This document shows, piece after piece, positions 34,367 through 45,131 of a stretch of 64,000 nt of DNA (positions are counted from its first letter, which is position 1; the number at the start of each line of letters is the position of its first letter). The notes under the pieces are model-generated. The model was not told where the DNA came from, did no database searches, and was given only the letters and a program-made list of their open reading frames with translations. The position numbers and the translations under genes were made by a program. This stretch comes from Pseudomonas sp. J452 (lineage in GTDB: Bacteria > Pseudomonadota > Gammaproteobacteria > Pseudomonadales > Pseudomonadaceae), in the NCBI RefSeq assembly GCF_024666525.1, contig NZ_CP088294.1, forward strand, positions 1,984,001 to 2,048,000, read 5' to 3'.

Positions 34367-35959
34367 TCAGCTCAGTTTGCGTGAGTGGGCGAAGGTGATG
34401 CGGAAGCAGCTGCCGCCACCTTCACGCGGTTTGTAGTCGAGGCGTGCCTGGTTGCTTTCGCACAGCTCGCGGGAAATATACAGGCCCAGACCGGTGCCCT
34501 TGTTATCGGTGGTGTAGAAGGGCTCGAAGATATGTTGTAGCTGCTCGGCGGGAATGCCGGGGCCGTCGTCGAGTACCTCGAGCACGGGGAGGTCGCTGTC
34601 CGGGTCGCGGAACAGCTTGAGCCAGACCTGGCCGAGCTGGTGTACCTGGGCGCTGTAGCGCATGCCGTTCTGCACCAGGTTGGTCAGTACCTGGGTCAGC
34701 TGGTGCGGGTCCATGCGGGTCTGCAGGCCGCTGCCGGAAGTTTCCAGATGCAGAGTCTGGTCGAGTGCCGCCGAGCTGCGAAACTCGCTGGCGAAACGAT
34801 GCAGCCAGTATTTCAGGTCCAGCAGCTGGGGTTCGGCCTGGCGCCGGCGCGACAGCTGCAGAACGTTCTCGATGACCAGGTTCATCCGCCGCGAGTGGTC
34901 CTGAATGATCTGTGCCAGGCGCCGGTCAGGCCCATCGAGGATCTCCGATTCCTGCAGCAGCTGCGCGGCGTGGCTGATGGCGCCAAGCGGGTTGCGGATT
35001 TCATGGGCGATGCCGGCAGTCAGGCGGCCCAGCGAGGCCAGCTTGAGTTGCTGGGCCTGCTGGGTGATCTGCGAGATATCTTCGAGAAACACCAGGGTGT
35101 GCATTTCCTCGCCGCGGTGCAGAGGAATGAAGCTGGGTTGCAGCAGCGGCCCATCAGGAATGGCCTGCAGGCTCTGCGGGCGCAAGGTGGGGTTGTGCAG
35201 CCATTGCTGCAGCCGTCGAACCAGCTCCGGGCAGTGCGGGTCGAGGACTTTGCCCGTCAGCTCGTTGCGTCCGAGCAAGGTCAGGGCGCCCTGGTTGGCC
35301 AGCACCACACGGTGCTGATCGTCCAGCACCAGGATGCCGGTGCGCATGCGCTGCAAGATCAGTGCGTTGAGGGCTTCCAGGCTGGCGACATCGACCGCCC
35401 GTTGTTCGGCGAGCTGTTCGCTTTGCTGCAGGCGCCGGCTCAAGCCCTGTAGGAATATGGCGGCGGCGAAGCACAAGGCGCCGAGTGCGCCCGCCTGCAC
35501 ATACTGGCTGGCGGCTGCCGGGCGGCTGAAGCTCAGGTAAAAGGTCAGGTAGATCATGCCAATGGCCGCGACAGCCGCGATCAGCAGGCCGACCCGGCCG
35601 CGTAGCAAGATGTTGGCAATGGCCACTGAAACGATTAGCAGGTTACCGATGCCGCTGGGCGTACCTCCTGCCGCGTAGAACAGCGCCACCAGCAGGATGA
35701 CGTCGGCCAGCGCCAGGCTGAACACCTGCAGCAGGTGGCGTGGCCGCTGCATCAGAACGGCGATCAGGATGTTGATGATCAGGTAGGCCCAGCTGCCATC
35801 GCGGAACAGTCCCGCGTGGGCCAGGTTGAGCAGATCCTCGTCCAGGTCGCTGGAGATCAACAGCACCAGAGCCAGGCCAACGGTTACCCGATAAAGATGG
35901 TACAGGCGCAGGACGCGGCGGCCATGGACACCTTCGAGGGTCATGGCATCAGCGTTCAC
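34367..35959 (-). CDS. pilS: Type IV pilus sensor kinase PilS
   Basis: A 530-residue histidine kinase with about six membrane helices (20-180), a PAS domain (about 190-300), the H-box LTAGIAHEIRNPLGAISHAA (His about 325), N-box NLVQNGMRYSA and G-boxes DDGPGIPAEQ and GTGLGLYISREL. It senses major pilin in the membrane and phosphorylates PilR. The start overlaps the PP0621-family gene by 11 bp, so all three are cotranscribed. Confidence 0.95.
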   Translation of the reverse strand: MNADAMTLEGVHGRRVLRLYHLYRVTVGLALVLLISSDLDEDLLNLAHAGLFRDGSWAYLIINILIAVLMQRPRHLLQVFSLALADVILLVALFYAAGGTPSGIGNLLIVSVAIANILLRGRVGLLIAAVAAIGMIYLTFYLSFSRPAAASQYVQAGALGALCFAAAIFLQGLSRRLQQSEQLAEQRAVDVASLEALNALILQRMRTGILVLDDQHRVVLANQGALTLLGRNELTGKVLDPHCPELVRRLQQWLHNPTLRPQSLQAIPDGPLLQPSFIPLHRGEEMHTLVFLEDISQITQQAQQLKLASLGRLTAGIAHEIRNPLGAISHAAQLLQESEILDGPDRRLAQIIQDHSRRMNLVIENVLQLSRRRQAEPQLLDLKYWLHRFASEFRSSAALDQTLHLETSGSGLQTRMDPHQLTQVLTNLVQNGMRYSAQVHQLGQVWLKLFRDPDSDLPVLEVLDDGPGIPAEQLQHIFEPFYTTDNKGTGLGLYISRELCESNQARLDYKPREGGGSCFRITFAHSRKLS

Positions 35960-36188
35960 CGGAGCTGGCGTCCTGCTCTAAGTGGGCCTGGCTGCAATAC
36001 CAGCGCTGCGCGTCGGCCAGCGCCGTGTCGCGCGGGACATGCACACCGCAGTGCGCGCAACGCACCATTGGTGGCGCACTGGGTTCTGCCGTGTCAGCTT
36101 GGGGCTTGCTGCTGGCGGGGCGATTGAAACGCCGCCACAGCCAGACGGCAGCGGCAATCAGGGCAATCCAGAACAACAGACGGAACAT
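35949..36188 (-). CDS. PP0621 family small membrane protein
   Basis: A 79-residue protein: one N-terminal membrane helix (MFRLLFWIALIAAAVWLWRRF), a Pro-rich linker, and a C-terminal zinc-ribbon-like segment with C-x2-C (VRCAHCGVHVPRD) and a later Cys in WYCSQAHLEQD. It matches the PP0621 family, which lies next to pilS in pseudomonads. The ATG at 36188 places the helix at the N-terminus. Function unknown; the overlap with pilS hints at a link to that system. Confidence 0.85.
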   Translation of the reverse strand: MFRLLFWIALIAAAVWLWRRFNRPASSKPQADTAEPSAPPMVRCAHCGVHVPRDTALADAQRWYCSQAHLEQDASSGER

Positions 36189-36367
36189 GGCGCACTCTTC
36201 TTGTTGGCAGGCGGCCAGTGTAGCCAAGGTCAATGCCCGGGCGCAGCAGATAAAGCGTGCCTGTGGCGAGCAAGAAAGTTCTGTCGGTTTTGTTTCGCAG
36301 GTAAATAGCCGGCAATGGCGTCGAGCGGGAACAGGCCCTAGGGGGGCAGTACTTTTTCGCCAGCAAC

Positions 36368-36479
36368 AAAAAACCCGCCGAAGCGGGTTTTTCTCAGACC
36401 ATTCCGACATCCTGTCAGCTGCCGTCCTGGCGATGGTCGATCATCCTTGATCCTGCTGCGCGTCCTGCGCTGCAGTGAT
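36368..36479 (-). ncRNA. RsmX/Y/Z-type CsrA/RsmA-sequestering sRNA candidate
   Basis: On the minus strand, hairpins GCGCAGGACGCGC (36470-36458), GATCAAGGATGATC (36452-36439), GCCAGGACGGC (36431-36421) and GACAGGATGTC (36416-36406) each show AGGA in the loop. Another GGA lies near 36402, and the RNA ends at AACCCGC-CGAA-GCGGGTT with a U6 tract. A -10 (TAATCT, 36491-36486) predicts a start near 36479 and a transcript of about 112 nt. This is the layout of RsmX/Y/Z, decoys that titrate RsmA under GacS/GacA. It occupies the 451-bp gap between the divergent PP0621 gene and polB. I recognise the class but cannot say which member. Confidence 0.8.
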
Positions 36480-36535
36480 GTAGCTAGATTAGTGACTGCC
36501 GCTGGCTTGCGACAGGGCGGATCGCAGCTTGCCCG

Positions 36536-36553
36536 TGTAAGCCTTTGGCTATT
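36536..36553 (-). promoter_or_regulatory. GacA-type upstream activating site (half-conserved)
   Basis: Read on the minus strand, AATAGCCAAAGGCTTACA keeps the right half of the GacA site TGTAAG-N6-CTTACA exactly and the left half poorly. Its centre is about 65 bp upstream of the predicted sRNA start, the usual distance for rsmX/Y/Z promoters. Confidence 0.5.
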
Positions 36554-36666
36554 CGTGACTCGACTGGGGTGTGTTGCCATTGCACGCCGGGCTGCGACTA
36601 AGCACAGCGAATACTCAGCTGTGCCAGTAGAATTGCGCCGTGAAACAGATTTCCGAGGTTGCAAGG

Positions 36667-39027
36667 GTGGAACTACAGCAGGGCTTTGTCCTGACCCGGC
36701 ACTGGCGCGATACGCCGGCCGGCACGCAGGTCGAGTTCTGGCTGGCGACCGACACCGGCCCGCGCCTGGTGCGCCTGCCGTATCAGCCCTCGGTGGCCTT
36801 CATTCCGGCTGAGCAACGGGCGCGCGCCGAAACGTTGCTGCAAGGCGCGCGCGGGGCGGAGCTGCGCGAGCTGGGGCTGTGCGATTTCCACCATCGCCCC
36901 GTGCTCGGCCTGTACTGCCAGCAGCACCGCCAGCTGATCAACCTCGACAAGCAGTTGCGCAAGGCCGGCGTCGATGTCTACGAGGCCGATGTGCGCCCGC
37001 CGGAGCGCTACCTGATGGAGCGCTTCATCACCGCGCCGCTGCTGTTCGGCGGCACGCCGGATGAGGGCGGCATGCTGCTCGAGGCGCAACTCAAACCCGT
37101 GGCGGATTACCGCCCACCATTGCGCCTGGTCTCCCTCGATATCGAAACCACCGAGCATGGCGAGCTGTACTCCATCGCCCTGGAAGGCTGCGGCCAGCGC
37201 CAGGTGTATATGCTCGGCCCGGCCAATGGCGACGACAGTGCCGTGGACTTCCAGCTCGACTACTGCGCCAGCCGTGCGCAGTTGCTGGAGCGCTTGAACG
37301 AGTGGCTGGCCCGGCATGATCCGGATGCGATCATCGGCTGGAACCTGGTGCAGTTCGACCTGCGCGTGCTGCACGAACATGCCCAGCGCCTCAAGGTGCC
37401 GCTGCGCCTGGGGCGTGGTGGTGACGAGATGGGCTGGCGCGAGCACGGCAGCGGCAAGCACTACTTCGCCGCGGCGGCCGGCCGCTTGATCATCGACGGC
37501 ATCGAGGCACTGCGCTCGGCGACCTGGAGCTTTCCCTCGTTCAGCCTGGAATACGTCGCCCAGACCCTGCTCGGCGAGGGCAAGTCGATCGATACGCCCT
37601 ACCAGCGCATGGATGAGATCAACCGCATGTTCGCCGAGGACAAGCCCGCCCTGGCGCGCTACAACCTCAAGGACTGCGAGCTGGTCACGCGGATCTTCGC
37701 CAAGACCGAACTGCTCACCTTCCTTCTCGAGCGCGCCGCCGTCACTGGCCTGCCGATCGACCGCAGCGGCGGCTCGGTAGCGGCTTTTACCCACCTGTAC
37801 ATGCCGCTGATGCATCGCCAGGGTTTCGTCGCGCCCAACCTTGGCGAGAAGATCCCGCAGGCCAGTCCCGGTGGCTTCGTCATGGAGTCGCGCCCCGGCC
37901 TGTACGAGTCGGTGCTGGTGCTCGACTACAAGAGCCTGTATCCGTCGATCATCCGCACCTTTCTGATCGACCCGGTGGGCCTGGTGGAAGGCCTGTGCCA
38001 CCCCGACGACAGTCAGTCGGTGCCCGGCTTTCGCGGCGCGCGCTTCTCGCGCAGCAAGCACTGCCTGCCGGCCATCGTCGCGCGCGTCTGGCAGGGCCGC
38101 GAGGCGGCCAAGCGCGAGGGCAACGCGCCACTGTCGCAGGCCCTGAAAATCATCATGAACGCCTTCTACGGCGTGCTCGGCTCCAGTGGCTGCCGCTTCT
38201 TCGACACCCGCCTGGCCTCGTCGATCACCCTGCGCGGCCACGAGATCATGCGCCGCACCCGCGAGCTGATCGAAGCCGAAGGCCATGGGGTGATCTATGG
38301 CGACACTGACTCCACCTTCGTCTGGCTCGGTCATGAGCATGCCGAAGAAGAGGCGGCGCGTATTGGCCGGGCGCTGGTGCAGCGGGTCAACCAGTGGTGG
38401 CGTGAGCATCTGCAGCAGGAATACGGCCTGCACAGCGCGCTGGAACTGCAGTTCGAGACGCACTACCGGCGCTTCCTGATGCCGACCATTCGCGGTGCGG
38501 AAGAGGGCAGCAAGAAGCGCTACGCTGGCCTGGTCAAGCGTGCCGACGGCCACGAGGAAATGGTCTACAAGGGCCTGGAAACGGTGCGCAGCGACTGGTC
38601 GCCGCTGGCCCAGCAGTTCCAGCAGGAGCTCTACCAACGCATCTTCAACCGCCAGCCCTATCAGGACTATGTGCGCGACTACGTGCGGCGCACCCTGGCC
38701 GGCGAACTGGATGAGTTGCTGATCTACCGCAAACGCCTGCGCCGCCAGCTCGGCGACTACCAGCGCAACGTGCCGCCGCATGTGCGCGCAGCGCGTCTGG
38801 CCGACGACTACAACGAGCGCCAGGGGCGGCCGCGGCAGTACCAGAACGGTGGCTGGATCAGTTACGTGATGACCCTCGCCGGGCCGGAGCCGCTGGAAAC
38901 CCGCAGCTCCCTGATCGACTACGAGCACTACCTGTCACGCCAGTTGCAACCGGTGGCCGATGCGATCCTGCCCTTCGTGGATGACGACTTCAGTCGCTTG
39001 GTCGACCGGCAGCTGGGCTTGTTTTGA
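36667..39027 (+). CDS. polB: DNA polymerase II
   Basis: A roughly 786-residue family B polymerase with proofreading. Exo I is [11 protein letters not shown] (about 158), polymerase motif [16 protein letters not shown] (about 418), motif [16 protein letters not shown] and motif [11 protein letters not shown] (about 545). In relatives it is SOS-inducible and restarts stalled forks or bypasses lesions. A GTG at 36667 has GAGG upstream and matches the [14 protein letters not shown] start of homologues; an in-frame GTG at 36640 is the alternative. No LexA box was noticed before it. It stands alone. Confidence 0.93.
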
Positions 39028-44737: not shown

Positions 44738-44754
44738 TTGGTGGAGCCGGGGGG
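44738..44754. repeat. Right attachment repeat (attR) within ssrA
   Basis: TTGGTGGAGCCGGGGGG, identical to 42324-42340; it comprises the acceptor-stem end (CCA included) of ssrA. Confidence 0.85.
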
Positions 44755-45131
44755 GATTTGAACCCCCGTCCGCCAGTTCTCCACTTTCGGTACTACATGC
44801 TTAGCCGTGTCTATTGAGTTAATCCGTAGCCGCCCGACGGGCAGGGTGCTTTGGACGAGTTGTGTAAGTTTTAGCCACTTTGTCCACAACGTACTACGCG
44901 GCGATCCTGTTCTGCATGACAATCACTTCAGGTTTACAGGCATCCCCTAGTGATCGCTGGAGCCGAAGCTACCAGAAGGACTAGTCGCGCTGCTTACGCA
45001 GCGAGAGCGTAGCCCTCGTAGTTTTCGTCATTGGCAACTATAGAAAGTTGCAACAGTGGATTTACGACTTCTGTTACCAAGTCGGCATGCACCTAGAGCT
45101 TCGCTACCGGCGTCGAATCCTAATCGGCCCC
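44739..45131 (-). ncRNA. ssrA: tmRNA (transfer-messenger RNA)
   Basis: Minus strand begins GGGGCCGATTAGGATTCGAC at 45131 and ends GGCTCCACCA at 44739, a total of 393 nt. The 3' T-arm GGGTTCAAATCC and encoded CCA are present. The tag frame on 45035-44994 reads ANDENYEGYALAA followed by TAA; the last residues (ALAA) are the ClpXP signal. It rescues stalled ribosomes with SmpB, encoded 4 kb away at 48942. The integrated element replaced the DNA beyond the 3' end but restored the mature sequence. Confidence 0.95.

Follow-up and report, generated by a model that had tools for sequence, protein, structure and literature searches.

An rsmX small RNA gene located between polB and PP0621-pilSR in Pseudomonas sp. 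J452

Identification of an rsmX gene

The minus strand of the window, as we call the whole 64,000-nucleotide stretch analyzed here (positions 1984001-2048000 of genome G000, a single contig of 4,862,927 bases), carries at 36368-36480 what we regard, with a probability of about 0.96, as an rsmX gene of Pseudomonas, which would be activated by GacA and yield an RNA of ~113 nt that titrates the translational repressor RsmA together with RsmY and RsmZ (Table 1). A cmscan search of the complete window against Rfam 15 returned three gathering-level matches, among them the rsmX model RF02144, which scored 116.1 bits (gathering score 56; E 2.5e-21) and was matched over its full length (model positions 1-114 of 114). 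The RsmY model (RF00195) reached 50.3 bits at this locus, below its cut-off of 57, and for the RsmZ model (RF00166) no match at E 0.001 was listed here, the two places listed for it being elsewhere in the genome. The Rsm-type sRNA that an earlier note had recognized from the letters of the DNA is borne out as RsmX, the one model of the three proposed there for checking that passes its threshold, and the coordinates, strand, size and structure had been read correctly. These assignments, the predicted fold and the conserved upstream activating sequence (UAS) are computational results, and the same genome encodes rsmY, rsmZ, a GacA-family regulator and CsrA.

With 150 of the 1061 first-look candidates scored, RF02144 matched the genome only once. 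Among the 57 genomes of the search for relatives, run with stricter filters, 24 had a match above the cut-off, all of them from the same genus. A DNA search with rsmX produced matches at E 0.001 in 292 of 298 genomes of the genus, many of them weak (E ~1e-4 to 1e-6), and these weak matches were excluded from the rsmX count.

Table 1. Coordinates of the rsmX gene, its predicted elements and its neighbors in the window
Feature	Position	Strand	Basis
rsmX sRNA gene, ~113 nt	36368..36480	-	RF02144, 116.1 bits; fold z -4.53
Putative GacA UAS, AATAGC-N6-CTTACA	36536..36553	-	CTTACA placement in 60/64 copies; 15/18 identical to published rsmX UAS
Putative -10, TAATCT	36486..36491	-	Sequence; identical box in many listed orthologues
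Predicted hairpin 1, loop AGGAC	36453..36475	-	Minimum-energy fold; double changes at 4/6 consensus pairs, each in one or more sequences
Predicted hairpin 2, loop AGGA	36439..36452	-	Fold; GGA exact in 31/31 aligned rsmX; 2/4 consensus pairs changed on both sides
Predicted hairpin 3, loop AGGAC	36421..36431	-	Fold; GGA exact at these columns in 24/31; no pair changed on both sides
Predicted hairpin 4, loop GGA (AGGA if the innermost pair opens)	36404..36418	-	Fold; GGA exact at these columns in 17/31; no pair changed on both sides
Predicted rho-independent terminator hairpin and T run	36368..36393	-	Sequence and fold; pairing in 99.7% of cells (31 sequences)
PP0621-family gene, downstream of rsmX, same strand	35949..36188	-	NF041023, 91.8 bits vs cut-off 45
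Sensor histidine kinase (called pilS from its position and after the earlier note)	34367..35959	-	Histidine-kinase profiles, none above cut-off among the 25 matches listed
polB, DNA polymerase II, divergent from rsmX	36640..39027	+	NF004422, 1557.5 bits vs cut-off 1103

The window also holds, on its minus strand, the Pseudomonas sRNA P31 (58183-58261; RF01676, 62.3 bits against a cut-off of 40) and a tmRNA gene (44739-45131; RF00023, 190.4 bits).

Predicted fold and covariation

The 113-nt RNA (minus strand, 36480 to 36368) ends in CCCGC-TTCG-GCGGG-TTTTTT, and folded alone, terminator included, it attains -48.9 kcal/mol (z -4.53), a stability equaled by none of 200 dinucleotide shuffles. A rho-independent terminator is predicted directly at the 3' end, with an 11-bp stem including the A/T run, in agreement with the terminator and the transcript of ~112 nt noted previously. 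Several AGGA/ANGGA motifs are predicted to lie in hairpin loops: in the minimum-energy fold, four loops bear GGA, hairpins 1 and 3 presenting it as AGGAC, hairpin 2 as AGGA and hairpin 4 as GGA. The RNA contains six GGA in total, but one, an additional AGGA that spans the junction between stems 1 and 2, is paired in the same fold and the sixth lies partly within a stem, so that four sites, rather than six, are likely to be accessible. The initial description gave four AGGA loops and a fifth GGA, and the paired AGGA comes in addition to these.

The consensus structure calculated with RNAalifold from 31 rsmX sequences comprises 31 pairs with 97.5% of the cells paired, compared with 40.5-47.4% in slid controls, a comparison in which the consensus is favored because it was derived from the same 31 sequences. 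Changes on both sides were found for 9 of the 31 consensus pairs, against a mean of 2.1 after shuffling; none of 500 shuffles reached this number, a frequency that is not to be read as a probability because the shuffled sets no longer reflect how closely the sequences are related. The double changes are distributed over stem 1 (four pairs), stem 2 (two), the enclosing stem (two) and the terminator (one), and none was detected in hairpins 3 and 4 in the alignment.

Promoter and upstream activating sequence

The -10 box reported at the expected place corresponds to TAATCT at 36491-36486 and is plausible. Farther upstream, the minus strand at 36553-36536 reads AATAGC-CAAAGG-CTTACA, which matches the palindrome TGTAAG-N6-CTTACA at 8 of 12 positions (4 mismatches), the CTTACA half-site occupying 36541-36536 and the center of the palindrome (36544.5) lying 64.5 nt before the 5' end of the Rfam match. 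The half-perfect site previously placed about 65 bp upstream is real and represents the standard upstream element of rsmX. CTTACA by itself occurs 10 times in the window, where 10.3 occurrences are expected, and hence its significance derives only from its placement and conservation. Both were assessed in rsmX copies matching at E 1e-5 or better (68 copies in 53 loci, reduced to 64 by removing three duplicates and one copy near a contig end): an exact CTTACA is located 59-63 nt before the first base of the model in 60 copies, and the other four have a one-base variant of it at 62. In this set the left half of the UAS mostly reads TATRGC or AATRGC, and rsmX elements are thus regularly imperfect on that side.

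The passages cited from PMC7911923 give the rsmX UAS of P. brassicacearum as TATAGCGAAACGCTTACA, describe it as recognized by GacA, and report that expression of rsmX-1 and rsmX-2 in that species is exclusively GacA-dependent. The 18-mer of the window is identical to this sequence at 15 of 18 positions and is the best match to it on either strand of the 64 kb; it corresponds to the GacA UAS of the form TATAGC-N6-CTTACA that is expected ~60-65 nt upstream of an rsmX gene. According to the cited part of PMC4950607, the promoters of rsmX, rsmY and rsmZ each carry a UAS of 18 bp, which GacA requires for their activation.

Gac/Rsm components encoded in the genome

The genome contains RsmY at C1:709275-709394 on the minus strand (98.9 bits), with a perfect UAS centered ~66 nt upstream, and RsmZ at C1:4786400-4786535, also on the minus strand (108.4 bits), with a perfect UAS ~181 nt upstream. 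A GacA-family regulator adjoins uvrC (NF007018, 306.2 bits against a cut-off of 280), and a CsrA/RsmA gene is present (117.5 bits against 73). The parts list of the Gac/Rsm system found in this Pseudomonas comprises one rsmX, one rsmY and one rsmZ, along with two CsrA-family proteins. The second of these is a divergent protein of ~69 aa (L179, 1495-1701, minus strand) that scores 36.3 bits with PF02599, above the cut-off of 27, and stays below the cut-off of the NCBIfam csrA models; we take it to resemble RsmN/RsmF. A candidate fourth Rsm RNA at G000:C1:3127367-3127469 was rejected, its RsmZ-model score of 27.4 bits being below the cut-off of 44 and the match overlapping both the 3' end of an ORF resembling periplasmic binding proteins and a terminator-like hairpin that follows this ORF.

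Exact TGTAAG-N6-CTTACA palindromes occur three times in the genome, two of them lying before rsmY and rsmZ (the distances given above were obtained by subtraction). The third (L036, 1501-1518; G000:C1:4058597-4058614) lies ~40 bp ahead of an ORF that encodes 356 aa and contains a GGDEF motif, and it possibly marks this ORF as a direct target of GacA. It may also have arisen by chance, since ~0.29 exact matches are expected in 4.86 Mb at equal base frequencies. Among the matches listed in 40 genomes of the genus, the only relative of near-whole length outside this genome is in G028 (residues 8-355, 58%), and its locus lacks a TGTAAG-N6-CTTACA site within three mismatches. The close relative G139 has two perfect palindromes only.

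Chromosomal address

Among the loci examined, only G000 and G139 showed the gene order polB-rsmX-PP0621-pilSR; over 178 bases, the rsmX region of G139 shares 93% identity with that of the window. No rsmX was detected beside polB in the fetched flanks of 80 named polB loci (best nhmmer E 0.73), nor was PP0621 found in these flanks, which extend more than 2 kb before polB in 75 loci and more than 1 kb in 78; two of the 80 contain weakly similar stretches of a kinase or regulator. All 80 polB relatives kept are labeled Pseudomonas, and the set may lack the window's own genome or a very near one. Conversely, within ~1.5 kb, neither rsmX nor polB adjoins PP0621 in 28 of 30 loci (in one of the 28, just ~300 bases upstream of PP0621 were covered), and the remaining two are those of G000 and G139.

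The junction of polB with PP0621-pilS itself (window 35949-39027) was likewise observed only in these two genomes among the loci examined, which is compatible with an apparent lineage-specific rearrangement, and denser sampling could find more carriers. No description of rsmX at the polB/pilS address was found in a full-text literature search, largely confined to non-subscription journals. The neighbors of rsmX vary in general: in a crude gene call, the best-scoring flanking ORFs of 50 loci fell into many separate groups. In 15 loci of relatives, two rsmX copies are present within one ~3 kb locus (L009, L018, L022, L120, L130, L133, L134, L135, L138, L139, L140, L141, L143, L146 and L147), and tandem rsmX has already been described, in the cited passages of PMC7911923.

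The earlier note had stressed that the location differs from those of rsmY and rsmZ in P. aeruginosa. The difference is genuine, but the surprise that it implied is smaller: the RNA of the window is a different Rsm RNA and a different location is therefore expected, rsmY and rsmZ are found elsewhere in the genome, and rsmX neighbors vary. In the cited part of PMC4950607, P. aeruginosa is credited, among the three types, with RsmY and RsmZ, so that this species offers no rsmX address for comparison.

Alternative readings and proposed mechanism

That the locus is a decaying relic of rsmX, stranded at a rearrangement junction with its expression and regulation lost, is highly improbable. The polB/PP0621 address is restricted to two close species among those examined, the UAS is imperfect, and in the copy of G139, the nearest relative, hairpin 3 no longer has its GGA. 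However, rsmX elements normally have one imperfect UAS half, the six GGA, the terminator, the -10 and the UAS are all in place, the copy has been kept in G139, and the RF02144 score is the second highest listed for the 57 genomes of the search for relatives. The notion that the hairpins and terminator form a 5' leader or attenuator of PP0621-pilS rather than a separate sRNA draws on the same-strand position of PP0621 and pilS downstream, with the PP0621 ATG ~180 nt beyond the terminator; it is scarcely credible given that rsmX relatives retain the RNA, the UAS and the terminator beside many unrelated genes and that the 28 other PP0621 loci, including the one with a short upstream stretch, have no adjoining rsmX.

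A further proposal extends the rsmX reading to the neighboring genes. In this small lineage the UAS, an enhancer that GacA would bind, lies ~90 bp away from the start of the divergent polB, and Gac signaling might therefore influence DNA polymerase II as well, or a low level of read-through past the terminator might feed PP0621-pilSR; we consider this very unlikely, although read-through into PP0621-pilSR, if true, would link pilus control directly to the Gac switch.

For the separate rsmX gene, by analogy with the family, we infer transcription, dependence on GacA, binding of RsmA and its sequestration. Phosphorylated GacA would probably bind the element at 36536-36553 and then, with the cells nearing high density, activate a promoter of the sigma-70 type whose -10 lies at 36486-36491. 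The resulting RNA of ~113 nt would stop at its own terminator, ahead of PP0621, and its AGGA hairpin loops would bind RsmA dimers and perhaps also the second, divergent CsrA-like protein, so that, alongside RsmY and RsmZ, the RNA would draw RsmA off target mRNAs.

Comparison with known Rsm RNAs

The rsmX of the window belongs as an orthologue to a known family, and its lineage-specific chromosomal address is its sole unusual trait. It shows that an rsmX with the full promoter element can occupy a different address with the spacing of the UAS kept, and leaves the understanding of the family unchanged. RsmY (RF00195) and RsmZ/PrrB (RF00166) share with the window RNA the Rfam clan and the proposed function. 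They differ from it in that the RsmY model remains below its cut-off and no RsmZ-model match is listed at the locus; in this genome, moreover, rsmY has a perfect UAS palindrome, unlike rsmX, and the UAS of rsmZ lies ~181 nt upstream. The known RsmX RNAs (RF02144) of P. protegens CHA0, P. brassicacearum and P. syringae have the same length, AGGA hairpins, terminator and -10 as the window gene, as well as a half-degenerate UAS at an equal distance, and the window copy is distinguished from them by its position between polB and PP0621-pilSR.
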